A stretch of 35,403 nucleotides of DNA from a virus. The stretch lies in the IMG/VR virus record IMGVR_UViG_3300020205_003196, positions 1 through 35,403 of that record. One strand, written 5' to 3'. Shown here in pieces: positions 2-31,122 of this stretch (positions within the stretch are counted from its first letter, which is position 1; the number at the start of each line of letters is the position of its first letter). Under the pieces are notes generated by a model, which saw only the letters and a program-made list of their open reading frames with translations, did not search any database and was not told the DNA's origin. The translations under genes were made by a program, and so were the position numbers.

Positions 2-949
2 CGTCTGGATGACGAGTCTGGTCGTATTGCACTTTGCACACTGGGCTCAATCAATTGGGGTGCGTTCCGTAACCCAGAAGACATGCGCCGTGCTTGCCGC
101 ATACTGCATCGTAGCCTTAATAACATTCTTGACTATCAAGACTTCTTATCCATTCAATCTAAACTATCCAACGATGAAATCAGACCACTGGGAATCGGTG
201 TTACCAACCTTGCCTACTGGCACGCCAAACGTGGATTGCTGTACGGAGACCAAGGTTCCTTGGATGAAGTCAAGACGTGGATGGAACATCAAGCCTACTA
301 CCTAACAGAAGCCACAGTGGAATTGGCCAAAGAACGTGGCCGGTGCAAGGACTCGGACAAAACACGATATGGTCAAGGCATATTCCCGTGGGAATTGCGG
401 GCTGCTGGGGTTAACGAGCTTACTGACTTCTCTCCGGAATTAAACTGGGAAGTGTTGCGAACTGAAATGAAACAGCACGGTGTACGTAATGCAACATTAA
501 TGGCAATTGCTCCGGTGGAGTCTAGTAGCGTGGTAATTAATTCAACCAATGGTATTGAATTGCCCATGAGTTTGATCTCTGTGAAAGAATCCAAAGCAGG
601 GAGCCTTACACAGGTTGTTCCAGATTACCACAAGTTAAAAAATAAATATCAACTGATGTGGGCTCAGAAAGACTGTGACGGATATTTGAAAACTGCAGCC
701 GTATTGGCAGCATATGTTGATCAAAGCATTAGCACAAATACATTTTACAACCCAGCACATTTTGCTGACCGTAGGGTTCCCACAACCCTTATTGCTCGAA
801 ACTTGATGCAATCACACCACTGGGGTCTAAAAACTTTCTACTACAGCCTGATCAACAAAGCAGGTAGCAAAGGTCAAGACGAAGTGGTTGCACCATTAGA
901 AGCAATTGACTTTGATGATGAATCGGACTGTGAAAGTTGTAAACTTTAA
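2..949 (+). CDS. nrdA: Ribonucleoside-diphosphate reductase class Ia, alpha subunit, 3' part
   Basis: This is the C-terminal 315 residues of the large RNR subunit, which reduces ribonucleotides to deoxyribonucleotides; the 5' end lies outside the window. The fragment opens just before the second active-site cysteine (IALCTL, Cys12 here, equivalent to E. coli C462). It then shows the family signature NSTNGIELP, the DQSISTNTFYNP region and the KTFYY tyrosine pair that carries the radical from the small subunit. It ends with Cys310-Glu-Ser-Cys313-Lys-Leu, the mobile redox tail that is re-reduced by a glutaredoxin or thioredoxin; a glutaredoxin is encoded at 3517. The cytochrome gene follows after 14 bases. 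The assignment is firm; only the N-terminal two thirds are unseen. Confidence 0.95.
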   Translation, partial: RLDDESGRIALCTLGSINWGAFRNPEDMRRACRILHRSLNNILDYQDFLSIQSKLSNDEIRPLGIGVTNLAYWHAKRGLLYGDQGSLDEVKTWMEHQAYYLTEATVELAKERGRCKDSDKTRYGQGIFPWELRAAGVNELTDFSPELNWEVLRTEMKQHGVRNATLMAIAPVESSSVVINSTNGIELPMSLISVKESKAGSLTQVVPDYHKLKNKYQLMWAQKDCDGYLKTAAVLAAYVDQSISTNTFYNPAHFADRRVPTTLIARNLMQSHHWGLKTFYYSLINKAGSKGQDEVVAPLEAIDFDDESDCESCKL

Positions 950-963
950 TAAAGGAACTCAAA

Positions 964-1263
964 ATGAAATTATTAGTGTTAGTTGCTGCAATAGTATTGG
1001 TATCGGCATCTGCATCAGCACAAGATGCTGCACAGGGCAAGGCCAAATATGCCACCTGTGTGGCCTGTCATGGTGCTCAAGGTCAAGGCGGAGTGGGCCT
1101 AAAACTTCAAGGTCAAAAGCCTGAAGTAATTGTGAAAAAACTCACTGCCTACAAGAACAAACAACAAGTTGGACCTCAAAGTCAACTCATGTGGGGCATG
1201 GCTGCAGGGTTGACTCCTGCTGATATGGCAAATATTGCCGCATACACGGCCACCTTGAAATAA
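964..1263 (+). CDS. Periplasmic class I cytochrome c (c553-like)
   Basis: The 99-residue protein has a signal peptide (about residues 1-19, hydrophobic core then ASASA). A single haem-attachment motif CVACH lies at residues 32-36, followed by a HGAQGQGG loop and candidate axial methionines at 76 and 79 (LMWGM). The small single-haem fold matches soluble c553/c5-type electron carriers, which shuttle electrons in the periplasm after haem attachment by the host cytochrome-maturation machinery. The start is backed by AAAGGAA 8 bases upstream. It sits between nrdA and nrdB in the same direction, an odd place for a respiratory protein. The family call is strong; the role in infection, such as keeping respiration running, is inference. 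Confidence 0.9.
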   Translation: MKLLVLVAAIVLVSASASAQDAAQGKAKYATCVACHGAQGQGGVGLKLQGQKPEVIVKKLTAYKNKQQVGPQSQLMWGMAAGLTPADMANIAAYTATLK

Positions 1264-1273
1264 CATGTTATTT
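1258..1273. repeat. 16-bp perfect palindrome over the cytochrome c stop codon
   Basis: Bases 1258-1273 (AAATAACATGTTATTT) equal their own reverse complement, and the cytochrome stop codon TAA is inside. There is no loop or T-run, so it is not a standard intrinsic terminator. It could be a protein-binding site or chance in AT-rich DNA. Confidence 0.4.
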
Positions 1274-1308: not shown

Positions 1309-1941
1309 ATGAGTTTTTTAGTAGCAAATTTACCTCCAATAAAATGCTTTGTTCGTAGAGAATTTCTCTATGATTTTGAGAAGGGGCAAGGAGAACTTGA
1401 ACCTTGTTGGTGGATAACAATCAAGTCTCAACGGAGCCAGGCATTTAGAATTGAAGCGTACTTGAATCAATACGGTGCGTTATATGACAAACTACCATTA
1501 CACGCATTTTGCTGGAAACCCATAGAAGGTGACCCGTATCCGTTAGATTTTTTACAATTATGGAACAGCATGTCTTATGATGTTACTGTGATTAAAAAAG
1601 CAATGATAGCAAATATGAGATGTAAAATTAAGATGAAAGATGGATCATGGTTAGAGGGTGAATATCTTTTTACTGTTGATTCTACACATCCAGATTTTAA
1701 TACCATAGATTGCGGGCATAGTGAAGATGTTGAAGATCACAAAAGTTTTAACTTTATCAAATGCGACAACGGTCAATTTGCTGCACAACCAAACAATCGT
1801 GTTGTTATTTTAGAACCAGCAAGTAATCCCAAAGAAATGAAAATACCAGATTTTAATGTTGCTACCACTAGATGGAATGTTGAAATGGATCCAAAGTGGG
1901 ACTATGGATTGCCAGAAAACAAATGGCGAATGAACGAATAA
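1309..1941 (+). CDS. Conserved phage-type hypothetical protein
   Basis: I do not assign a function. The 210-residue protein is soluble, with no signal peptide or membrane segment. It has an aromatic- and charge-rich N-terminal half (EPCWWITIKS, YGALYDKLPLHAFCW) that I associate with proteins found beside RNR genes in marine T4-like phages; that link is from memory and not checked. The upstream AAGAAG is a weak ribosome-binding site, and the 45-base gap after the cytochrome contains a possible TATGAT -10 box. It lies between nrdA and nrdB in the same direction, so co-expression with nucleotide metabolism is likely. Confidence 0.8.
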   Translation: MSFLVANLPPIKCFVRREFLYDFEKGQGELEPCWWITIKSQRSQAFRIEAYLNQYGALYDKLPLHAFCWKPIEGDPYPLDFLQLWNSMSYDVTVIKKAMIANMRCKIKMKDGSWLEGEYLFTVDSTHPDFNTIDCGHSEDVEDHKSFNFIKCDNGQFAAQPNNRVVILEPASNPKEMKIPDFNVATTRWNVEMDPKWDYGLPENKWRMNE

Positions 1942-1964: not shown

Positions 1965-3065
1965 ATGAGCCAGGCACAATACAACTTAAACACCAAGACA
2001 GACTATCTCAATCGTAAGATGTTTCTAGATCCAGCAGGGCCAGTGACTATACAACGATTTGAAGAAGTCAAGTACAACAAGATTGCCAAGTATGAGCAAG
2101 AAGCACGTGGGTTCTTTTGGGTACCAGAAGAGATCTCTTTAACCAAAGACAGCCAAGACTTTAAAGATGCAAGTGAAACAGTCAAGCATATCTTTACTAG
2201 CAATCTACTAAGACAAACAGCACTAGACAGTTTACAAGGTCGTGGCCCAAGCCAAATCTTTACACCTGTGGTGAGTTTGCCAGAACTAGAAGCCTTGGTT
2301 TACAACTGGACTTTCTTTGAGACCAACATTCATTCACGTAGTTACAGCCACATCATTCGTAACATCTACAACGTGCCCAAGGATGTGTTTAACACCATCC
2401 ATGACACAAAAGAAATTGTAGACATGGCATCCGGCGTGGGCAAGTATTATGAGTGCCTGCATATGATCAATTGCCGCAAAGAACTAATGGAAAAGTTTCC
2501 TGAACGTGAACACATTCGAGCTATATGGATGGCATTGCATGCCAGCTATGCCTTGGAGGCATTCCGCTTTATGGTTAGCTTTGCCACAAGTTTGGCAATG
2601 GTGGAGAATCGTATTTTCATTGGCAATGGCAACATCATTCAGCTAATCCTGCAAGATGAAATACTGCATAAAGAATGGACTGCTTGGTTAATCAATCAAG
2701 TGATCAAAGAAGATCCCCGATTTGCTGCCATCAAGGCCGAATGCGAGGCCGAAGTGTACCAACTGTATCGGGATGTGATCCGCGAAGAAAAAGACTGGGC
2801 TGATTACCTGTTCAAGCATGGTCCGGTGATTGGACTCAATGCCAACATCTTGAGAGACTTTGTGGACTTTACTGCCAAAAACGCACTTGGCGAAATTGGT
2901 ATCAAGTACACGGAACCCGCACCTAAATCAACACCTATTCCCTGGTTCAACAAGCACGTTGACACCAGCAAGAAACAAACTGCGCTCCAGGAGAACGAAT
3001 CAACTAACTATGTTATTGGTGTTATGAGCGACAGTATTAACTATGAGGAGTTACCAGACCTATGA
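1965..3065 (+). CDS. nrdB: Ribonucleoside-diphosphate reductase class Ia, beta subunit
   Basis: This 366-residue protein is the small RNR subunit, which holds the di-iron/tyrosyl radical cofactor. Visible ligands include the Asp of ALDSLQG, Glu119 and His123 in ETNIHSRSYSH, the Glu in LEAFRF, and Glu232/His235 in DEILH; the radical tyrosine is Tyr127. The first Glu-His pair is spaced ExxxH rather than the usual ExxH, a one-residue insertion. I chose ATG 1965 because an in-frame upstream start at 1896 lies inside the previous gene and adds a non-family N-terminus. The ribosome-binding site is weak. The stop overlaps the next ATG (ATGA). Confidence 0.94.
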   Translation: MSQAQYNLNTKTDYLNRKMFLDPAGPVTIQRFEEVKYNKIAKYEQEARGFFWVPEEISLTKDSQDFKDASETVKHIFTSNLLRQTALDSLQGRGPSQIFTPVVSLPELEALVYNWTFFETNIHSRSYSHIIRNIYNVPKDVFNTIHDTKEIVDMASGVGKYYECLHMINCRKELMEKFPEREHIRAIWMALHASYALEAFRFMVSFATSLAMVENRIFIGNGNIIQLILQDEILHKEWTAWLINQVIKEDPRFAAIKAECEAEVYQLYRDVIREEKDWADYLFKHGPVIGLNANILRDFVDFTAKNALGEIGIKYTEPAPKSTPIPWFNKHVDTSKKQTALQENESTNYVIGVMSDSINYEELPDL

Positions 3066-3520
3066 ACAACGACATTCGACGAACAATCGAAGCAATACAA
3101 CCGCGTGTGGATGATGAGTGGTTTGGCAGCGGTGCATTTTCCACATTCAAACACCCCACCCCAATTCAGTATCAAACAGCCGCGGAACCGGGCACAATCA
3201 AAACACTTGAAGGCCCAGTGGATTACATTGCCGGCCACAAGATTATCACAGGTCCCAAAGGTGAACAGTATCCTGTAACACCTATAAAGTTTGCTGCCTA
3301 TTATGATGACAACGGAGACGGGACTGCTACTCCCAAAAAGATTATGAAAGTAGCAAAACTGGCCGACCATGATGGTGTACTACATACGTCATGGGGTGAT
3401 TTAAATTACAGCAAAGGCCAGGACTACATTGTCAAGCATGGCCCAGGCGATTATGGTGCCGTTAAAGCAGACATCTTTGCCAAGACCTATGATAAATCAA
3501 AAGAAGGAAAATACAAATGA
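3062..3520 (+). CDS. PGDYG-domain protein
   Basis: The 152-residue protein ends in a segment containing YIVKHGPGDYGAV, the signature that names the PGDYG family, whose biochemical role is not known to me. The middle part (PVDYIAGHKIITGPKGEQYPV, residues about 52-72) repeats the theme of a substituted or exchanged compound seen in that family. There is no signal peptide or membrane segment. It overlaps nrdB by four bases and the glutaredoxin gene by four bases, so it is translationally coupled into the nucleotide-reduction operon, which suggests but does not prove a linked function. Confidence 0.7.
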   Translation: MNNDIRRTIEAIQPRVDDEWFGSGAFSTFKHPTPIQYQTAAEPGTIKTLEGPVDYIAGHKIITGPKGEQYPVTPIKFAAYYDDNGDGTATPKKIMKVAKLADHDGVLHTSWGDLNYSKGQDYIVKHGPGDYGAVKADIFAKTYDKSKEGKYK

Positions 3521-3750
3521 AAGCAATTGTATGGAGCAAATACCACTGCCCCTATTGCGATCAAGCAAAGGCACTATTAAAACAAAAAGGTATACAGTTT
3601 GAAGAACGCAAAATTGGCGACGGTTATACAAAAGAAGAATTGCTAGAAGCAATCCCCACAGCCAGAACAGTACCACAGATTATCCTCAACGGAGAACTGG
3701 TAGGCGGGTTTACAGAACTCAAAGCAAAATTAACAGAAAGCATCGGATGA
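3517..3750 (+). CDS. Glutaredoxin
   Basis: The 77-residue protein has the dithiol active site CPYC at residues 11-14, the TVPQI cis-proline motif and the GGFTEL glutathione-binding end, so it is a complete small glutaredoxin. Its likely partner is the C-terminal CESC tail of the nrdA product encoded upstream, giving the phage its own electron donor for ribonucleotide reduction. It could also be called NrdH-like, but CPYC and GGFTEL favour a glutaredoxin. It overlaps both neighbours by four bases, which indicates a coupled operon. Confidence 0.92.
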   Translation: MKAIVWSKYHCPYCDQAKALLKQKGIQFEERKIGDGYTKEELLEAIPTARTVPQIILNGELVGGFTELKAKLTESIG

Positions 3751-4320: not shown

Positions 4321-5714
4321 TGGCTGGTCCAGGATTCAGTGCTCCAGGTATATACACACCGTTGCAATTGATTGCAGGTGCAGGCCTGTTGCAAAATCAA
4401 GGCATTGCGGTACCAACTGCGCTGACCAATGCAGTAACGTCGTATAATTCGTTGTCATTGATTTCCAATCTCATGAGTACCATTGCTGCTGCACCCTCAT
4501 ATGGATTGAGTGCTTCGGTTGTGACCACTCTCAAATCACTTGGCGCCGGTACATGTCCAGCTCTTGGGGCAAGTGTGCCAACAGCATCGGCCAATACCAA
4601 TCCATTGTTGCCTACCAGTGAGCCTGGGGGATTTGGCAATCTTGTGGCCAATAATGCTGCCATGTATTTGGGCGATGGCGAAGTTGATAAATTCTGTCAA
4701 GTATTTCAGATAGTGTCTGGTTATCGATCAACCACAAATACCCTGATATGCAGTGCTGTAAATGCTACCACTTATCTTGGTCCTACCTTTACCACAATGA
4801 ATGATTTAATCACTGGCCAGGCCACTGGTGTGAATTTAGCCGTGAAATGTTTAGGGCGGGATCTTGCCAAGTCTGGTGATTTAATAAATTTGGCAAAATT
4901 AGAAGATTTTGGCACCCCAACTGGATTGTTGCAGCAAATTAGCAAGCTGGCTGGAATTAAATCAGGCACCATCGGAGTTGTTGCCACAGCGTTGCTAGAT
5001 CAAGGGCTTACTCCCAAGGAGATTGTCTCATTGTGTACTCCCAACAGTGTTAACGGTGCTTTAGGTGGTGGCGCAGGTGGCGGTGGTGTCAACGGTGGTG
5101 GTGGCGGTGCAGGTGGTGGTGGCGGTGCAGGTGGTGGTGGCGCAGGTGGTGGTGGTGGCGCAGGTGGTGGTAGCGCAGGTGGTGCAGGTGGTGGTAGCGG
5201 CGCAGGTGGTGGTGGTGGTGTCAATGGCGGTGGTGGCGGCGATGGATGGGCTGCTTTGCCTAATGGTGCAGTTGATCCAAATGAATTAAATAAATTACAA
5301 AAAAAGGCTTATCCAGCACTGAAAAATATCAAAGGTACAGATCTAGCAGAGGTATTGCAAATCTTAAATGTGTTTACTCCTAATATTAATAACCTTGCCG
5401 ATTTATTAAATCTACAAAAGATTTTCCCCACCAGTTGGTCATCAATGACTGTTCCCTCTACTGCGCCTAGAAATAACAATGTACCGGGTGTTAATATATT
5501 GATTTTTGAACCCGACGGTTCATTGAACCCCCTGGTAGAAAATGCACTAAATGACAGTACATCTATTGTGTTGCCATCCGGCTGTGATGAATTGGCCAAA
5601 ATCATTCCTCCTGAATTGGCCGTGGCAAACAAAGTGTTTCAGTCTTCTTTACAACAGATTGGTGGAATATCAACTATCAGTGCACCGCGGCTTGCAGTTG
5701 CATTACTAGGGTAA
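4320..5714 (+). CDS. Virion/baseplate-type protein with Gly-rich tract
   Basis: The 464-residue protein is Ala/Thr/Ser/Asn-rich with four or more cysteines in residues 70-180. It is interrupted at about residues 245-310 by an almost pure Gly/Ala/Asn/Ser tract, then continues with a normal globular domain (KKAYPALKNIKGTDLAEVLQIL). It lies directly behind the PAAR gene, so I infer a tail or baseplate component. A contiguous glycine tract recalls the polyglycine modules of T-even gp38-type adhesins or a flexible linker; neither can be proved here. The start ATG overlaps the PAAR stop. There is no signal peptide. Confidence 0.75.
   Translation: MAGPGFSAPGIYTPLQLIAGAGLLQNQGIAVPTALTNAVTSYNSLSLISNLMSTIAAAPSYGLSASVVTTLKSLGAGTCPALGASVPTASANTNPLLPTSEPGGFGNLVANNAAMYLGDGEVDKFCQVFQIVSGYRSTTNTLICSAVNATTYLGPTFTTMNDLITGQATGVNLAVKCLGRDLAKSGDLINLAKLEDFGTPTGLLQQISKLAGIKSGTIGVVATALLDQGLTPKEIVSLCTPNSVNGALGGGAGGGGVNGGGGGAGGGGGAGGGGAGGGGGAGGGSAGGAGGGSGAGGGGGVNGGGGGDGWAALPNGAVDPNELNKLQKKAYPALKNIKGTDLAEVLQILNVFTPNINNLADLLNLQKIFPTSWSSMTVPSTAPRNNNVPGVNILIFEPDGSLNPLVENALNDSTSIVLPSGCDELAKIIPPELAVANKVFQSSLQQIGGISTISAPRLAVALLG
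5065..5245 (+). repeat. GGT/GGC/GCA triplet-rich tract coding for a Gly/Ala run
   Basis: Imperfect repeats of GGTGGTGGCGGTGCA-like units encode a Gly/Ala run flanked on both sides by VNGGGG. The two VNGGGG borders suggest internal duplication by slippage. The tract is in frame with its host gene, so length changes in multiples of three would be tolerated. Confidence 0.8.
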
Positions 5715-5716
5715 TT

Positions 5717-6400
5717 ATGGAAACACTCAAAGGCCTACCTCTTGTAGAAAATGTTGCCAAGGCAGTGCCTGACGCTGTGACATCTTATTATCAGACAACT
5801 TTTGCAACAGGTACTGGAGAATTTGGAACTTTTAGAATACAAGATTTTCTAGGTACATCAGCCGGAATAATATCAAAACAAACAATGTTAAACGTTGTTG
5901 CAGTGATCAACAGCATGAATGTTTCGGCATTGACCAGTCTGTACAATACCATGTTACTCACAGTGCAAGGTACCTATGGGGCTGCTGCTGGTCCGGTCAC
6001 CATTCCCTCTGGACCAGCAGCTGGAGTATATGCCACTGGTGATCTTGCATTTACCTCAGGATTAATTCCGGCTGCAAACACTATAATTTCCACATTGATA
6101 GCCACATATCCGTTACAAACCAACTCACTCAATCGACAGTTTACAAATATTTGTAATCAATACACATATGAATATACCAATCAAGTTCGTGCCGGTGTAG
6201 ATTTTACTGAACTTGTATCAGGATCACAGAATGCCACTTTTAGTTTCATGAGCAGTTTGGCCACCATTGGACAGGACAGCATGCGGGGCGGCCAAGCAAA
6301 TTATATAAATGTAGTGGCAAATCCAGAAATTCAATCTGGACAAGCTGTGATTGGCGCTCTAAGAGAAGGCCGAAATATTTTGTTAATGGATAAATCATGA
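5717..6400 (+). CDS. Structural-type hypothetical protein of the tail block
   Basis: I do not recognise a named family. The 227-residue protein is soluble and rich in Thr, Ser, Ala and Asn, with few charged residues, typical of virion proteins, and it has no signal peptide. It starts two bases after the preceding stop and overlaps the next gene by four bases, so all three genes from 4320 to 7794 are probably one transcript. Its position after PAAR and between two Gly-rich proteins suggests a role at the tail tip or baseplate. Confidence 0.75.
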   Translation: METLKGLPLVENVAKAVPDAVTSYYQTTFATGTGEFGTFRIQDFLGTSAGIISKQTMLNVVAVINSMNVSALTSLYNTMLLTVQGTYGAAAGPVTIPSGPAAGVYATGDLAFTSGLIPAANTIISTLIATYPLQTNSLNRQFTNICNQYTYEYTNQVRAGVDFTELVSGSQNATFSFMSSLATIGQDSMRGGQANYINVVANPEIQSGQAVIGALREGRNILLMDKS

Positions 6401-15149: not shown

Positions 15150-15209
15150 ATATATTTTATCACGCAAATACATGTAAATATGTAAACACCACCGTTGAAA
15201 GGTAATATT

Positions 15210-15896
15210 ATGTTTGGTACAATGTACACAGGAAATCTTGAATATCGAGATGCTAGCGAAATAAATTCTGCCATGGGCAGAGTTTATGGACATATGAGTT
15301 TGGCAGTGCTCACCTCTATGATTATCAGTTGGTTTGTGGGCTCTAGTCCGGATCTGCTACAGTTCTTTTTTACCGGTATCCTAAAATGGATTGTAATTTT
15401 TGCTCCATTAGTGGCAATATTTGCCATTGGATTCTTGATGGAAAAAGTAGGCAAGTCAGGAGCGCAGATCATGCTGCACGGATTTGCCGCATTGATGGGA
15501 TTGAGTTTTGCAACAATCTTTGCCATTTACACCATGGGATCGATTGTAAACGCATTTATGGGAGCGGCAGTGCTGTTTGGAGTGCTCAGTGGATATGGAT
15601 ATTTTACCAAACGCAGTTTAGACAGTGTTGGCAAATGGATGTTTGTGGGGTTGATTGCCATCGTAATCGCCAGTATAATAAATGTATTCATAGGTAGTAG
15701 TGTGGGGCAAATGGTAATTAGTGCATTGGCAATTGTTATATTTCTTGGATTAACTGCATATGACACACAAAAGATTCGTGAAGAATTGAGTTTCGACACC
15801 AATGGTGTAGCTGAAGTTCGGGGCGCATTAACGTTATACCTTGACTTTATTAATATTTTTATTCACTTGTTACAACTGTTTGGCGGTAGGAAATAA
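15210..15896 (+). CDS. Bax inhibitor-1 / YccA-family membrane protein
   Basis: The 228-residue protein has about seven hydrophobic helices. It has the family N-terminus (MGRVYGHMSLAVLTSMIISW), the central GVLSGYGYFTKRSLDSVGKWM and the terminal LTAYDTQKIREE signature with the acidic residues of the BI-1 channel. Bacterial relatives include YccA, a modulator of the FtsH membrane protease, and YbhL/YetJ-type calcium-leak channels. I chose ATG 15210 because GAAAGG lies upstream; an in-frame TTG at 15195 is less likely. Protection of phage proteins from FtsH or ion-flux control are inferences. Confidence 0.9.
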   Translation: MFGTMYTGNLEYRDASEINSAMGRVYGHMSLAVLTSMIISWFVGSSPDLLQFFFTGILKWIVIFAPLVAIFAIGFLMEKVGKSGAQIMLHGFAALMGLSFATIFAIYTMGSIVNAFMGAAVLFGVLSGYGYFTKRSLDSVGKWMFVGLIAIVIASIINVFIGSSVGQMVISALAIVIFLGLTAYDTQKIREELSFDTNGVAEVRGALTLYLDFINIFIHLLQLFGGRK

Positions 15897-16473: not shown

Positions 16474-17976
16474 ATGATATTTGGTTTTAGCATTTTGACC
16501 ACAGCTCTGCTATTGAGCTTGGTAGCTGCATATTATTCAGTAGCCGGGCTTACCGCCATATTCTCCGCGGCTGCAATACCCGTGATAATCATGGGCGGCA
16601 GTTTAGAACTAGGCAAGATTGCGGCCACAGTATGGTTGCATAATAACTGGCGGCGTGCCGGGATTATGTTTAAACTATATCTAATACCGGCCATAGCATT
16701 TCTCATGGTGCTTACCAGCATGGGTATCTTTGGATATCTAAGCAAAGCACATTCAGACCAAAGTTTAGTTTCGGGTGACGTACAAAGTAGGATAGCAATC
16801 TATGATGAAAAAATCAAAACAGCACGAGAAAATATTGAAGCCAACCGCCGGCAACTCAAACAAATGGATGAGGCAGTTGACCAAGTCATGGGCCGCAGTA
16901 CAGATGAAAAAGGTGCCGACAAAGCAGTCAGCGTACGGAAAAATCAGTCCCGTGATCGCGTTGCTTTGGCCAAAGACATTGAAGCCAACCAGAAGCTTGT
17001 TGCTAAACTTAATGACGAAGCCGCACCTATTCGCGCAGAAGTACGCAAGGTAGAAGCCGATGTAGGCCCAATCAAATACATTGCCGCATTGGTATATGGC
17101 GATAATCCTGATACCAACATCTTAGAACGTGCGGTACGATTGGTAATCATAATGATTGTGTTGGTGTTTGATCCACTGGCACTGACATTGATATTGGCTG
17201 CCAACAAACAATTTGAATGGGTGAGAAAAGGCAAGGGTGGCTGGGCTCATGACGATCCCCAGGCATATCCGCCCGACGATAGTCCACTGTCCCCTGAACA
17301 GATTGCACAGATAAAAGAAACAGCCAAAGAAGATTTACCAACAGGTCCGGTTATTACCAAGACCTGGATGTCGGGTGATATTCCTAAACCCTATCCCATG
17401 ACAGAGCCCGAGGTAGAACAAGTGATAACAGAGTTTGATCGAGCTAGACATGCATACCTAGACAAACCATTTGTTCATTTTGAGAATTTAAAACCAATGG
17501 TGGCTCCCACGGAACCAGAGCCAATCACAGCATCAGTAATAGATTATGACCCAATGGATCCCAATGATTCAGTGGATATGAAAGCGGCCAAGAGTGTGTG
17601 GAAAGACCTGCATCCTAACGATACATTGAAGATGGAACGTATTAAATTGGCCAAAGGATTGATTACAGAATTGCCGTGGGTAAAACTTATTAAGAATGTA
17701 CCTACTTCGGGATTTGGTAATGTATTTCCAATGGCCGCTGGCAAAGGTGATACCTATATTCGTATAGACAGTTTACCAAATCAATTGTATAAGTTTAATG
17801 GCAACGAGTGGATCGAGGTTGACACACATACAACTAACAGTTATACTTACGATATAGCATATCTTGATTATCTCATTGAAAAACTAAGTACCGGTGAGTA
17901 CGATCCTGAATTGCTGAGTGCAAACGAGCAAGAACAAGTGACACAACGTTTACAAGACAAACCAACCGATACATGA
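16474..17976 (+). CDS. Inner-membrane protein with periplasmic or cytoplasmic coiled coil
   Basis: The 500-residue protein has about three hydrophobic helices at residues 3-90 (with GGSLELGKIAATVWLHNNW) and a charged coiled coil at about 98-195 (YDEKIKTARENIEANRRQLK and QKLVAKLND). Another hydrophobic helix follows at about 222-245 and then a long soluble tail. The tail has FPMAAGKGDTYIRIDSLPNQ near residue 420, which looks like a small domain of its own. I recall similar proteins in marine T4-like phages without a function. There is no ribosome-binding site; it starts five bases after the previous stop and overlaps clpX by four bases. Confidence 0.8.
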   Translation: MIFGFSILTTALLLSLVAAYYSVAGLTAIFSAAAIPVIIMGGSLELGKIAATVWLHNNWRRAGIMFKLYLIPAIAFLMVLTSMGIFGYLSKAHSDQSLVSGDVQSRIAIYDEKIKTARENIEANRRQLKQMDEAVDQVMGRSTDEKGADKAVSVRKNQSRDRVALAKDIEANQKLVAKLNDEAAPIRAEVRKVEADVGPIKYIAALVYGDNPDTNILERAVRLVIIMIVLVFDPLALTLILAANKQFEWVRKGKGGWAHDDPQAYPPDDSPLSPEQIAQIKETAKEDLPTGPVITKTWMSGDIPKPYPMTEPEVEQVITEFDRARHAYLDKPFVHFENLKPMVAPTEPEPITASVIDYDPMDPNDSVDMKAAKSVWKDLHPNDTLKMERIKLAKGLITELPWVKLIKNVPTSGFGNVFPMAAGKGDTYIRIDSLPNQLYKFNGNEWIEVDTHTTNSYTYDIAYLDYLIEKLSTGEYDPELLSANEQEQVTQRLQDKPTDT

Positions 17977-19166
17977 ACACATCTAAAAATCCCGATACCT
18001 GTAGTTTCTGTGGCAAACACAAAGACACAGTAACTAAACTTATTGTAGGTGAAGATGTAGCAATATGCAATGAATGCGTGGACCTATGCCAAAATTTGTT
18101 AGTAGATCAAATTGATCCTAAACCAGTTGACCACCCAAATCTCAACCCCAAACAAATACGACAACACCTTGACAAATACGTAATAGGCCAAGATCATGCT
18201 AAAATCATGCTCAGTGTGGCTATTGCCAATCATTACAAACGAATCAGGAACACAGATACCGGCGCCGAAATTGAAAAGGCCAATATTCTCATGCTTGGTC
18301 CCACCGGCTCGGGCAAAACATTGTTAGCACGTACTGTGGCACGTTATTTAGATGTTCCATTTGTGATTGCAGATGCAACTAGTTTAACTGAAGCAGGATA
18401 TGTGGGAGATGATGTTGAAAGTTTAATCAGTAGACTGTTTGCCGCAGCCGGCAACAATGTTGAAAAAACACAACAAGGTATTATATTTGTAGATGAAATT
18501 GATAAAATTACTAGGAAAAGCGAAGGCTCCAGTATCACCCGTGATGTATCGGGGGAAGGGGTACAACAAGCCTTGCTCAAGTTAGTGGAAGGTACCAAAT
18601 GTCGTATTACGGCCACAGGTGGTCGAAAACATCCGTCGGGTGATATGATTGAGATTGATACTACTAACATTTTGTTTATTGCTGGCGGTGCATTTGTTGG
18701 ATTAGAAAACATTGTAAAAAGTCGTATACAAGGTACTAGCATGGGATTTAATGCCGAAATATCAAATACACACAATGAAAAATTACATCTAGATCAAACC
18801 ACCCCCGACGATCTTGTGCGGTACGGATTAATTCCAGAATTTGTCGGACGCTTTCCTTCTTGGGTGGCTCTTAAAGAGCTTGACAAGAAAGATCTCATAC
18901 GTATTCTTAAAGAAGTCAAACACAATTATATAAGTCAATATCAATGGTTGTTCAAGCAGGATAATGTAGAATTGGCATTTACCTCAGACAGTTTGGAGTT
19001 GATTGCCGAACGGACAATTAAAAATAAAACAGGGGCTCGTGGGTTGCATTCAGAACTGGAGCGGGTGTTACTGCCACATATGTACAATCTAGCACAATAT
19101 CGCACAGATGGAATTGATCATGTGGATATATCAACTGAGGAGGTGAACATTCCAAAAGAATTATAA
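17973..19166 (+). CDS. clpX: ATP-dependent unfoldase ClpX
   Basis: ClpX unfolds tagged proteins and feeds them to ClpP. The 397-residue protein is nearly complete against 424 in E. coli. It has zinc-finger Cys10, 13, 32 and 35, Walker A GPTGSGKT (109-116), pore loop GYVG (142-145), Walker B IIFVDE (170-175), RKH loop (218-220) and sensor-2 GAR (354-356). The ClpP-docking tripeptide is MGF (257-259) rather than IGF, so docking to a host ClpP is probably kept. No clpP is in this window. Its ATG overlaps the preceding stop without a ribosome-binding site, so translation is coupled to the membrane-protein gene. Confidence 0.96.
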
Positions 19167-19179
19167 TTCACAGCCCTGG

Positions 19180-19187
19180 TATAAATA
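19180..19187 (+). promoter_or_regulatory. T4-late-like promoter box TATAAATA before dnaK
   Basis: The exact T4 late consensus lies 66 bases before the dnaK ATG, in an 86-base gap. Downstream, 19194-19217 can fold (GTAGA/TCTAC plus CCC/GGG). No good -35 hexamer is present, as expected for a late promoter. Confidence 0.55.
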
Positions 19188-19252
19188 TTATAGTAGATGC
19201 CCATGGTGGGGTCTACATTACAAAGTCATCTTGCTTTTTAAAGGAGAAAAAT

Positions 19253-21130
19253 ATGACAAAGCATGTTATTGGCGTGGATTTAGGAACAACTAATTCCTGT
19301 GTAGCCATAATTGAGAACGGAATCCCCAAAATCATTGAAAACAGTGAAGGTGCTAGAACAACACCGTCAATCGTTGCCTACGCCAATGATGAAATCTTAG
19401 TAGGTGCTAGCGCAAAGCGTCAAGCAGTTACTAATCCAAAAAATACAGTATATGCCGCAAAACGGTTAATCGGTCGTAAATTCACTGAACAAGCTGTACA
19501 AAAAGATATTGACTTAATGCCATACAAAATCGTACAAAATGATAACGGTGATGCATGGGTTCAAGTTAATGATGACAAGTTAGCACCTCCGCAAATCAGT
19601 GCTGAAGTCTTACGCAAAATGAAAAAGACTGCGGAAGACTATCTTGGACATGAAGTAACACAGGCAGTTATTACTGTACCTGCTTATTTCAATGATAGTC
19701 AACGTCAAGCAACTAAAGATGCAGGACGTATTGCAGGCTTAGAAGTATTGCGTATCATTAACGAACCAACTGCTGCTGCATTGGCATATGGTGTAGATAA
19801 ACAAGACAAGCGTGACCGTAAAATTGCTGTCTATGACTTGGGTGGTGGTACATTTGACGTATCTATCATTGAGTTAGCAGATGTTGACGGTGAAAAACAA
19901 ATTGAAGTATTATCAACAAACGGAGATACATTCTTAGGTGGTGAAGACTTTGACCAACGTATCATGGATTTCTTAGTTGAAGAATTTAAGAAAGACTCCG
20001 GCGTTGATTTAACCAAAGACGTACTAGCATTACAACGTCTAAAAGAAGCCGCTGAGAAAGCTAAAATTGAATTGTCAAGTTCAAATCAAACTGATGTTAA
20101 CTTGCCATACATTACAGCAGATGCAAATGGTCCTAAACATATGAATGTTAAACTAACCCGTGCTAAGTTGGAAAGTTTAGTTGATGAATTAATTACACGT
20201 TCAATACAACCGTGTAAGCAAGCATTGAAGGATGCTAATGTTAATGTTTCTGACATTGACGAAGTTATTTTAGTTGGTGGTATGACACGTATGCCTAAAG
20301 TTATTGAAACAGTTGAGAAATTGTTTGGTAAGGCACCACGTAAAGACGTTAACCCAGACGAAGCAGTTGCTGCCGGAGCAGCTATTCAAGGTGCTGTATT
20401 AAGCGGTGATCGCAAAGACGTACTATTGTTAGACGTTACTCCATTAAGTTTGGGCATTGAAACAATGGGCGGAGTCTTTACTAAGATTATTCAAAAGAAC
20501 ACAACCATTCCAACTAAAGCATCACAAACTTTTAGTACTGCGGAAGATAATCAACCAGCAGTTACTATCAAAGTTGGGCAAGGTGAACGTGAGATGTTTG
20601 GATATAACAAAAATCTCGGTGAGTTCAACTTAGATGGGATTGCACCTGCACAACGTGGTAAACCTCAAATTGAAGTTACATTTGATATTGATGCAAATGG
20701 TATCATGCATATTAGTGCAAAAGATAAGGGCACAGGTAAAGAGAACAAGATTACTATTAAATCTAGTTCTGGATTAAGTGAATCTGAAATACAACAAATG
20801 GTTAAAGATGCTGAATTAAATGCAGAAGCGGATAAGAAGCAAGTTGAATTGATTCAATCACGTAACAATGCTGAAGGTACATATAATTCCTTTAAGAAGG
20901 ATTTTGATGAGTACAAGGATCAAGTAACTGAAGAAGAAAAAGCTAAAGCAGAAACTGCAATGAATGCTATCCAAGAAGCACTTAAAGGTGAAGATGTAGA
21001 AGCAATCAGAAAAGCTACAACAGATTTATACGAAGCAATGAACCCGATTACTGGTAAAAAGTATGAAGCGGAAGAAAAGGCAAAAAAAGAATCTGAAGTA
21101 GTTGACGCAGACGCTACTGAAACTGTTTAA
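19253..21130 (+). CDS. dnaK: Chaperone DnaK (Hsp70), full length
   Basis: The 625-residue protein is a complete Hsp70: GVDLGTTNS phosphate loop, [65 protein letters not shown] at the start of the substrate-binding domain, and a helical lid to the end. The E. coli EEVDKK-type tail is replaced by DADATETV. The strong AAAGGAG site and late-type promoter suggest high expression. Codon use differs from its neighbours (more TTA, GTT and GAT, few GCC), which fits later acquisition or tuning for expression. No dnaJ or grpE is in the window, so host cochaperones are presumably used. Hsp20 follows after 11 bases. Confidence 0.97.
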
Positions 21131-21141
21131 GGAGAAAACAA

Positions 21142-21594
21142 ATGACAAAAACTTTACACCTTCGTTCCCTTGATATTCCAGGAATTCACAAATTTGGTAT
21201 CGGTTTTGATAACATGTTTGATGAACTGTTGCGAGTGAATGCTCAACAATCAAACAACAATTATCCACCGTACAACATTGTACAAGTCAATGACGACGAG
21301 TTTATGATTAGTATTGCTGTTGCAGGATTTGGTCACGATAATCTAACAGTTACCAAGGAAAAAAACTTCTTGATAATTGAAGGCAAAGAGTATGAATCCA
21401 CTGGTAAAAAAATTGAGCCAAACTATCTACACAAAGGTATCAGCAACAGAGATTTCCGTAGAGAATTCCAATTGGCGGATCATGTGGAAATTAATGGAGC
21501 ACACCTTGAACTTGGTATATTGAGCGTTCACTTAAAACGTGAAGTTCCTGAAGAAGCCAAACCAAAGACCATTGCTATCACTCACACTTTGTGA
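21142..21594 (+). CDS. Small heat-shock protein Hsp20
   Basis: The 150-residue protein has the IbpA-like alpha-crystallin domain: YPPYNIVQVNDDEFMISIAV at about residues 41-60, NLTVTKEKNFLIIEGKE, and the ISNRDFRREFQLADHVEI strand block, with a short C-terminal tail (KPKTIAITHTL) that holds an IxI-like motif. Hsp20 holds unfolding proteins for DnaK. Hsp20 genes are common in T4-like marine phages, but here the gene sits in an operon with dnaK (gap 11 bases, AAGGAG site), so the pair could form a working holdase-refoldase set. Confidence 0.94.
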   Translation: MTKTLHLRSLDIPGIHKFGIGFDNMFDELLRVNAQQSNNNYPPYNIVQVNDDEFMISIAVAGFGHDNLTVTKEKNFLIIEGKEYESTGKKIEPNYLHKGISNRDFRREFQLADHVEINGAHLELGILSVHLKREVPEEAKPKTIAITHTL

Positions 21595-21608
21595 TATAAT
21601 AGTAAATA

Positions 21609-21634
21609 CAGTGGCAGCAATAGTGCTGCCACTG
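21609..21634 (+). other. Perfect 11-bp hairpin between hsp20 and clpS
   Basis: Arms CAGTGGCAGCA and TGCTGCCACTG enclose the loop ATAG. It starts 15 bases after the hsp20 stop and lies just before the clpS ribosome-binding site, without a T-run. A TATAAT at 21592-21600 precedes it. It could be an attenuator, a processing site or a stability hairpin. Confidence 0.65.
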
Positions 21635-21649
21635 CAATAGGAAATAACC

Positions 21650-21958
21650 ATGTCACAATCAGAAACACAAACAAGAATTAAACCAACTAATCAGATCAAG
21701 GAACCTCCTATGTTCAGGGTGATTTATCTAAATGATAACACAACCTCTGTGGAATTTGTAATGGAAAGTTTGGTAGAATTTTTTAACTACACAGCCGACA
21801 CAGCTGAGGCAATTACAAATGCCATACACGAGTCTGGATCTGCTGTGGTTGCTGTGCTGCCTTATGAAATTGCCGAACAAAAAGGAATTGAAGTCACAGT
21901 CCGAGCTCGCAATAGCAGTTATCCATTGCAAATCAAACTTGAGCCTGATCAGGTCTAG
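21650..21958 (+). CDS. clpS: N-degron adaptor ClpS
   Basis: ClpS binds proteins with bulky hydrophobic N-terminal residues and hands them to ClpAP. The 102-residue protein has a flexible N-terminal extension of about 20 residues (needed for delivery in E. coli), then EPPMFRVIYLND. The ligands for the N-terminal amine are kept: Asn28, Asp29 and His60 (E. coli N34, D35, H66). Two changes stand out: D36 is Asn30 and the gatekeeper M40 is Val34. The acidic/Lys patch of the ClpA interface is partly present (EIAEQKG). No clpA is in the window. The stop overlaps the convergent gene by four bases. Confidence 0.92.
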   Translation: MSQSETQTRIKPTNQIKEPPMFRVIYLNDNTTSVEFVMESLVEFFNYTADTAEAITNAIHESGSAVVAVLPYEIAEQKGIEVTVRARNSSYPLQIKLEPDQV

Positions 21959-29573: not shown

Positions 29574-30569
29574 TTAAAATAGTCCCAATCGCTTCCAATC
29601 TGCACGAATCTTGGATTTAACTGCCGCAGGCAATGCAACATAATCTAAATCGTCAGCCATTTTGTCACCGTTGGCAAAACACCAATCAAAAAATGTCAAT
29701 GCACTTTTTACATCTGCTGGTTTGTCAGATTTTAATGGCACCAATATAAATGTAGCACCGCTGATTGGCCAGGTCTCGCGGCCTGCTTGATTGGTCAGAA
29801 TCTGATAGTATGATCGGTTCCAATCCGCACCATCGGCAGCAGCCTTAAAGGAATCCTCTGAGGGTGTTACCCAAGTTCCGGCAGCATTTTGAACATTAAC
29901 CCAATTCATTTTGGTTTGTTTTACATAGGCAAATTCAACATATCCAATGGAGCCTGGCAGTTGTCTAACCATAGCAGCCACTCCTTCGTTGCCCTTGCCA
30001 CCAGCACCAGCACGCCAGTTAACTGCGGTACCTTCACCAATGGTATCTTTAAACTCTCGACTGATTTTGCTTAGATAGTTGGTCCATATAAATGTTGTAC
30101 CCGATCCATCTGCACGGCGAACCACTGTGATTGCTTGGTCAGCCAACGCTAACTTGGGGTTCAATGCAGTAATAGCAGGATCATTCCATTTGGTAATCTT
30201 GCCCAAGTAAATATCAGCAAGAACCATGCCTGTCAATCTCATTGATCCAGGATCAATGCCCTTGACATTAATAACTGGAACCACTCCACCTATCACTGCA
30301 GGAAATTGAAACAAGCCCAATGCTGCCAATCGGTCGTCAGGCAGCGGCATATCACTGGCACCAAATGCCACAGTTCGAGATTCAATTTGTTTAAGTCCAG
30401 CGCCCGACCCTATGCTTTGATAGTTGACCTGTATACTAGTGGCTTTATTATAGGCTTCGGCCCATTTTGAATACAGTGGAGCAGGGAATGTTGCACCTGC
30501 TCCATTGATGTTCTGTGCTTGTACGGCGAATGTCATGGCCGTTAATAAAATAGCAAGTAGTTTTTTCAC
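29574..30569 (-). CDS. pstS: Phosphate ABC-transporter substrate-binding protein PstS
   Basis: PstS captures phosphate in the periplasm for the PstCAB importer. The 331-residue protein has a signal peptide (cleavage near AVQA-QN) and phosphate-loop motifs INGAGATFPAPLYSKW, IGSGAGLKQI, FGASDMPL, VRRADGSGTTFIW and the late GSIGYVEFAY. It lacks the rest of the pst operon, so it must act with host PstCAB. This is the pattern known for pstS in marine cyanophages, where it raises phosphate uptake during infection. A Pho box precedes it and a terminator follows. GGAGA near the ATG is a good ribosome-binding site. Confidence 0.96.
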   Translation of the reverse strand: MKKLLAILLTAMTFAVQAQNINGAGATFPAPLYSKWAEAYNKATSIQVNYQSIGSGAGLKQIESRTVAFGASDMPLPDDRLAALGLFQFPAVIGGVVPVINVKGIDPGSMRLTGMVLADIYLGKITKWNDPAITALNPKLALADQAITVVRRADGSGTTFIWTNYLSKISREFKDTIGEGTAVNWRAGAGGKGNEGVAAMVRQLPGSIGYVEFAYVKQTKMNWVNVQNAAGTWVTPSEDSFKAAADGADWNRSYYQILTNQAGRETWPISGATFILVPLKSDKPADVKSALTFFDWCFANGDKMADDLDYVALPAAVKSKIRADWKRLGLF

Positions 30570-30643: not shown

Positions 30644-30823
30644 TCATGCGCCTGGTTGCCAATTAAACCAACAGTGTTTTTGTAGCTCTTTTATTATGTC
30701 TGCCTCACTTTCGTTGTATTCTCTTGCAGCCATGGCAACAAATTCCACCCAGGCATGTGGCCAATCATCTCGGCCCTGACTCCACTGTTGATACATTATC
30801 TCCATGTGTCGAGCATTTATCAT
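30644..30823 (-). CDS. Very small hypothetical protein (59 aa)
   Basis: The frame starts with ATGA overlapping the stop of the upstream minus-strand gene and ends 75 bases before the pstS start. The product is acidic and Trp-rich (MYQQWSQGRDDWPHAWVEFV) with no signal peptide. The coupled start and the tight fit between neighbours argue that it is real. The function is unknown. Confidence 0.68.
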   Translation of the reverse strand: MINARHMEIMYQQWSQGRDDWPHAWVEFVAMAAREYNESEADIIKELQKHCWFNWQPGA

Positions 30824-31122
30824 ACTACCGGACCGGTGAATATTTGACGGCTACTTACACCAGACCCTAGAATACAGGCCATGTCTTTGTCAAATTGTAC
30901 TATGGTCCAAGTTTTTGTCGTTTCGTTGGCAAATATAGTAGTACTACTGGTATCAGAACCATTGCCTCGGCCAAGCCATATGGGTTTTTCACCGGCCTGG
31001 TCAGACAATGCTTGAAATACCAACGGGGTAGACTCACACATAACGGGTTTTTTTATCTGCGTTGGTTCCGCTAATACCAGTAACGGAATCAGCGGAATCA
31101 ACATGAGAAACACCAGGTACAT
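30820..31122 (-). CDS. Small exported hypothetical protein
   Basis: The 100-residue protein has a signal peptide (MYLVFLMLIPLIPLLVLA, cleavage near Ala-Glu-Pro) and two cysteines in the mature part. Residues around WTIVQFDKDMACILGSG recall small exported phage proteins. No ribosome-binding site precedes the ATG; instead AATAAATA, one base from the T4 late consensus, ends five bases upstream, so a late, near-leaderless mRNA is possible. It overlaps the 59-residue gene downstream. Confidence 0.72.
   Translation of the reverse strand: MYLVFLMLIPLIPLLVLAEPTQIKKPVMCESTPLVFQALSDQAGEKPIWLGRGNGSDTSSTTIFANETTKTWTIVQFDKDMACILGSGVSSRQIFTGPVV

Follow-up and report, generated by a model that had tools for sequence, protein, structure and literature searches.

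The 35,403-base virus record IMGVR_UViG_3300020205_003196, which we call the window in its full length, encodes a complete c-type cytochrome with a single haem site. Small haem proteins of this sort normally ferry electrons in bacterial respiration, and we think it reasonably probable that the phage supplies a periplasmic electron carrier that keeps host respiration going to the host terminal oxidase. The gene and its motifs, its phage origin, purifying selection, a gene cassette in relatives, and the substitution of pseudoazurin or another cytochrome for the carrier are all read from sequence; the function proposed is built upon them.

A cytochrome c gene in a phage nrd locus

The cytochrome ORF (Table 1) matches Pfam Cytochrom_C (E=3.2e-9) with 38.4 bits, above the curated cut-off of 21.3. 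By inspection its leader resembles an export signal, being short and hydrophobic, with Met-Lys followed by a hydrophobic run and ending ...SASASA-QD. Residues C32, C35, H36, and M76 are invariant across the viral rows examined. The mature product is predicted to be a His/Met cytochrome of about 8 kDa, presumably haem-loaded and redox-active. The sequence-only reading had described a complete, signal-peptide-bearing, single-haem cytochrome c encoded by a phage, and the Pfam match, the CVACH motif, the leader, and the phage genes on relatives' contigs (see below) all agree with that description.

Table 1. Positions of the cytochrome gene, its motifs, and other features of the window ("freshwater" and "marine," here and in the text, are labels drawn from sequence groups and host-like relatives)
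Feature	Position	Strand	Evidence
nrdA, 3' part (window starts inside gene)	2-949	+	PF02867 1.8e-50, phrog_84
Block 96% identical to L002, flanking genes diverged	945-1268	+	sequence comparison
AAAGGA, likely ribosome-binding site 5' of cytochrome	951-956	+	sequence
Cytochrome c precursor, 99 aa	964-1263	+	Pfam PF00034 3.2e-9; ORF, ATG start
Signal peptide, residues 1-19	964-1020	+	predicted by inspection; leader-like N-terminus in freshwater relatives
CVACH haem-attachment motif, residues 32-36	1057-1071	+	Cys/Cys/His invariant
Probable axial Met76 and Trp77	1189-1194	+	M in 42/42, W in 41/42 viral rows
210-aa ORF, phrog_3704 family	1309-1941	+	PHROG match
nrdB	1965-3065	+	PF00268 4.1e-40, phrog_86
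Glutaredoxin, likely reductant of ribonucleotide reductase	3517-3750	+	PF00462 5.1e-14
Bax-inhibitor/YccA-like membrane protein	15195-15896		
Protein quality-control block: ClpX, DnaK, small heat-shock protein, ClpS	17973-21958		
PstS phosphate-binding gene	29574-30569	-	best match 65% identity (search of one bacterial order only), too low for a host assignment
Small secreted protein, c8 family (in relatives follows cytochrome)	30820-31122	-	E=2.2e-48 to c8 profile

By sequence, the solved chains closest to it are those of cytochrome c554, a Thioalkalivibrio cytochrome c, and c552. An AlphaFold model built from 28 aligned sequences, with a mean pLDDT of 75, superposes best on c546/556, c554, and c552 (Z 7.1-7.8) and reaches Z 6.1 with the c4 of a bc1-cbb3 supercomplex; with Z values this middling, it is the sequence that establishes family membership. 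For placement within the c5, c554, or c4 subfamilies, trees of 82-97 columns contain many unsupported forks, and the best structural matches differ by no more than 1 in Z.

The genes at this end of the window run in the order nrdA (partial), cytochrome, 210-aa ORF, nrdB, PGDYG protein, and glutaredoxin. The cytochrome had been placed between nrdA and nrdB in the same direction; that position stands, but the gene is not the neighbor of nrdB, from which the 210-codon ORF separates it. This ORF belongs to a mainly cyanophage/pelagiphage family whose members are named ferredoxin, PurM, or hypothetical in the records; as a Pfam search returned no match for it, the "ferredoxin" of its PHROG label seems to be an error carried over between records. 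The best phage match of nrdB is Xanthomonas phage X1 (62.8%), in which nrdA and nrdB are adjacent. Genes for a class II aldolase and IscA-type iron-sulfur carriers occupy the same gap in another contig (L017, 1386-3581), and the gap therefore looks like a general cargo site. Elsewhere in the window, the order of the protein quality-control block partly recurs in contig L020, and the YccA-like gene has relatives on two cytochrome contigs, L003 and L020, next to the cytochrome in the latter; a similar-looking gene also sits near bacterial cytochromes in L425 and L428.

Because the window and several relatives have the gene between nrdA and nrdB, a redox role specific to nucleotide synthesis could be suspected. 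The protein, however, appears to be exported whereas the reductase is cytoplasmic, the glutaredoxin next door is the likely reductant, and most relatives lie away from nrd genes: they occupy several unrelated loci in other phages, and just 10 of the 60 distinct viral cytochromes retrieved are within 4 kb of nrdA or nrdB (some flanks being short). We regard such a role as very improbable and, on the same grounds of compartment, shifting position, and reductant, rejected a direct tie of the cytochrome to ribonucleotide reduction. The nrd position is incidental, and the stress that the sequence-only reading laid on the ribonucleotide reductase operon finds no support.

Phage origin, exchange, and selection

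Cellular respiratory genes in viromes are a published concern (PMC3877843), and the window might accordingly represent host DNA or a chimeric assembly. Against this, the arrangement is repeated on independent contigs. One of them (L002) carries nrdA, an aldolase-II gene, the cytochrome (96% amino acid identity), and nrdB, and the cytochrome also lies between nrdA and nrdB in L017, L019, L022, L023, and L024; a chimera at the nrdA-cytochrome or cytochrome-nrdB junction, which the earlier reading had named as the finding that would overturn it, is contradicted by these six contigs. Relatives also lie beside capsid, polymerase, and terminase genes. A Gp23-type capsid gene shares contig L031 with a cytochrome that directly follows the gp41 helicase and a small gene, and in L037 the cytochrome follows gp46/47 and DNA polymerase. 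Among larger cytochrome-bearing records, Gp23 is present in G024, G450, G452, G454, and G456 and terminase in G450, G452, G454, G456, and G457 (the terminase profile phrog_2 gave a single weak match on the first records, and PF03237 and Gp23 were used instead). We consider contamination or misassembly extremely improbable: judged by the T4-type capsid and terminase genes on the contigs of its relatives, the cytochrome is phage-borne. Searches for Gp23 and Terminase_6N in the window's closest freshwater records, which reach 99.5 kb and are probably fragments, gave no match; what marks these records as phage is other shared genes, for example those for nrd, helicase, and recombination functions. 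Large records encoding the 2-TM protein described below, searched for a complete freshwater cytochrome-bearing genome, yielded no cytochrome match.

Viral loci encoding relatives of the cytochrome numbered 41 in a first scan of IMG/VR and 237 in a profile-guided scan, of which 80 were kept. By tblastn, one freshwater and one marine copy found no match in 50,697 annotated phage records, whereas cyanophage plastocyanin, as a control in the same mode, retrieved 401; relatives too distant for tblastn would escape such a search. That c-type cytochromes are not generally known from phages thus fits the annotated records, within the limit set by published phage SoxD genes with cytochrome c motifs (PMC8190135).

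All bacterial relatives found are from proteobacteria or a few further groups outside the cyanobacteria. A weakly supported tree of 126 sequences (82 columns) unites 60 viral sequences with seven bacterial ones, and 21 mostly freshwater-type viral sequences, including that of the window, form a bacteria-free group. The seven bacterial members comprise one Luminiphilus locus (L044) and six loci of the same order (L418-L423). Several of these bacterial cytochromes share an N-terminal anchor region with the marine phage copies, and the marine phage group likely acquired its cytochrome from marine gammaproteobacteria, as far as sequence relationships indicate. A virus-only clade was rejected, because the Luminiphilus locus looks chromosomal (glnK-amtB and comM-like neighbors) and L418-L423 fall among viral sequences; Met-Trp was dismissed as a hallmark of viruses on the same ground. 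The neighborhoods of five bacterial cytochrome loci, read by eye, showed no informative operon.

Pairwise NG86 dN/dS values for the cytochrome are 0.04-0.23, many of them rough because of synonymous saturation and two undefined; they indicate purifying selection across very diverged copies. With phage genes beside it, a homologue among bacterial metabolic genes, and such selection acting on it, the window cytochrome is a candidate phage auxiliary metabolic gene. The gene also moves. A 324-bp block shared by the window and L002 contains the cytochrome gene alone and has a pS of 0.085, whereas pS is 0.67 for nrdA and 0.77 for nrdB: the cytochrome gene alone was recently exchanged between two phage nrd loci. 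Contigs L020 and L013 share the window order ligase, o16474, and ClpX, and their cytochrome has its place between the ligase side and o16474 and not at an nrd locus. This variable position, exchange of the gene on its own, and its absence from many related phages are what would be expected of passing cargo (a moron) without function in infection. We hold that to be quite unlikely, given the purifying selection over very diverged copies, the repeated co-orientation with the same partners, and the replacement of the cytochrome by an unrelated carrier.

Partner genes, exchangeable carriers, and a proposed role

Clustering of the neighbors of the first 41 loci, near-identical contigs included in the counts, identified a 2-TM protein of about 125 aa (21 members), a DoxX-like membrane protein (16), a small secreted protein (8), COQ7 (5), and DUF2970 (4, in two phage groups). 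In two contigs, 2-TM, cytochrome, and DoxX follow one another at distances of 1-20 bp (L005 and L012; in L005, 2-TM at 4722-5159, cytochrome at 5180-5476, and DoxX-like at 5478-5933). A third (L025) carries, on one strand, 2-TM, DUF2970, cytochrome, COQ7, and DoxX-like genes, with Pfam values of 1.1e-38 for COQ7, 2.1e-22 for DUF2970, and 2.1e-4 for DoxX (just below cut-off). In this phage operon (7199-9301), the gene for a COQ7-type ubiquinone hydroxylase thus separates those for cytochrome and DoxX; the sole COQ7 match in phage records is to Wolbachia phage WO (24%). Against the DoxX profile PF07681 (cut-off 23.6 bits), the marine L195 copy scores above, at 30.4, and freshwater copies just below, at 22.3 and 23.1. 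DUF2970 was found in 15 of 21 genomes of the order around Polynucleobacter, and lies inside the aa3 oxidase cluster coxB-coxA-ctaG-DUF2970-coxC in two genomes examined of the host-like order (one Pfam-verified). A fold search with the 2-TM protein returned nothing interpretable. In the 35 kb of the window, profile searches for DoxX, 2-TM, and COQ7 gave no match, and the cassette argument reaches the window cytochrome only via its relatives.

A scan with a DoxX alignment found 288 viral DoxX loci, of which 80 were kept. Some marine phages have a pseudoazurin-like copper protein before DoxX (PF00127, 4.8e-16 and 1.4e-17), and others (L239 and L241) have a c550-type cytochrome after it. Within 2.5 kb of 51 distinct DoxX proteins, this cytochrome occurs 14 times, pseudoazurin 11 times, the c550 type once, and two carriers together never; the remaining 25 have none of the three profiled carriers within that distance, some for lack of flank. 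This interchange of unrelated carriers in one slot beside DoxX is our main argument that the role is electron carriage. A protein resembling COX4_pro_2 (aa3 oxidase subunit IV, PF07835; 20.8, 19.7, and 19.0 bits, just under the cut-off of 22) lies near seven of the 11 pseudoazurin cases, seven carrier-less ones, and none of those with the cytochrome. DoxX, 2-TM, and COX4_pro_2-like genes cluster in L195 (4498-6408) and L242 (6004-7487), with pseudoazurin directly before DoxX in the former and near the cluster in the latter.

Given DoxX-like, 2-TM, ubiquinone-synthesis, and oxidase-associated partners in relatives, the data suggest that these phages strengthen the quinone-to-oxygen end of the host respiratory chain. 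The precursor would be exported to the periplasm and receive its haem from the host cytochrome c maturation system; the cytochrome would then pass electrons from the quinol-oxidizing complex of the host to its terminal oxidase, most likely of the aa3 type, which may maintain proton-motive force and ATP during phage replication. A search for COX1 in 32 viral records found none, so the oxidase would be the host's, and the aa3 type is suggested by the associated small proteins. Support of host respiration or replacement of a host carrier had been the guess of the sequence-only reading, and the cassette in relatives lends it weight. Several observations count against the respiratory reading: the window has neither a DoxX nor a 2-TM match, DoxX is poorly understood in function, the COX4_pro_2 and freshwater DoxX matches fall just short of their cut-offs, 25 of the 51 distinct DoxX proteins have no profiled carrier nearby, DUF2970 accompanies only two distinct phage cytochromes, and the large cytochrome-bearing marine records searched are without DoxX.

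Archaeal DoxDA is a thiosulfate:quinone oxidoreductase, and the cytochrome could accept electrons from another oxidation, for example of a sulfur compound via DoxX, and so boost an accessory donor of the host. Besides the DoxX-like partner, several of the nearest bacterial cytochromes come from sulfur oxidizers (Thiomicrorhabdus and Thioalkalivibrio), and the structural matches of the model include domains of flavocytochrome c and TsdBA. We judge this unlikely, as DoxX is a broad family, no sulfur-oxidation gene was recognized in the cassettes read, and COQ7, DUF2970, and the COX4_pro_2-like partner indicate the quinone/oxidase side. Defense against oxidative stress, with the cytochrome feeding electrons to a periplasmic peroxidase or acting as a redox sink, would draw on the AhpC-like and glutaredoxin genes near some relatives; it seems distinctly improbable, because AhpC is cytoplasmic and its gene near only six of 60 distinct cytochromes, glutaredoxin accompanies nrd genes, and no cytochrome c peroxidase was recognized in the loci read. 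To the preferred reading, that of a respiratory carrier, we add a more speculative extension, for which we see a small but real chance: T4-related phages of heterotrophic aquatic bacteria might possess a modular respiratory unit with which they rewire the terminal part of the host's respiratory chain and perhaps circumvent the bc1 complex of the host. With equal reserve, its parts would be a quinone-synthesis enzyme, membrane proteins, an exchangeable cytochrome or copper carrier, and oxidase-associated subunits.

Relation to known systems

That phages control the energy supply of photosynthetic hosts is well documented. If phages of apparently non-photosynthetic aquatic bacteria carry a widespread, selected carrier cassette, such control would extend to aerobic respiration, and marine and freshwater carbon models would gain a direct, testable effect of viruses on respiration. 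Among the open-access papers searched, none was found to describe a monohaem cytochrome carrier encoded by phages of non-photosynthetic hosts.

SoxD genes with cytochrome c motifs have been published in phages, two of the reported phage copies being without the motifs (PMC8190135). These are likewise phage-encoded but are part of sulfur oxidation, whereas the window gene encodes a single-haem carrier that is complete, and no Sox partner was seen with it. Reads of cbb3 subunit I in the viral size fraction have attributed a respiratory gene to viruses of heterotrophs (PMC3474794); that evidence for a cytochrome oxidase is at the level of reads, and in the 32 viral records searched here no COX1 was found.

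Among cellular proteins, the proteobacterial monohaem cytochromes c552, c554, and c546 and c4-domain cytochromes share the fold, CXXCH, and axial Met, with 35-45% identity to the three best solved structures. The phage version differs in the Met-Trp after the axial Met, which it has in common with a few marine gammaproteobacterial proteins, and in the location of its gene in phage genomes.

The closest functional parallel lies in the plastocyanin (petE) and plastoquinol terminal oxidase of cyanophages: petE occurs in the 401 phage records mentioned above, all cyanophage-named, and S-TIM5 has both petE and a terminal oxidase. There, too, a small soluble carrier is encoded by T4-type phages and is thought to sustain electron flow during infection. 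The likeness is functional only, as the window gene encodes a c-type cytochrome and not a member of the blue-copper plastocyanin family, and its bacterial relatives are proteobacterial or belong to the few other, non-cyanobacterial groups.
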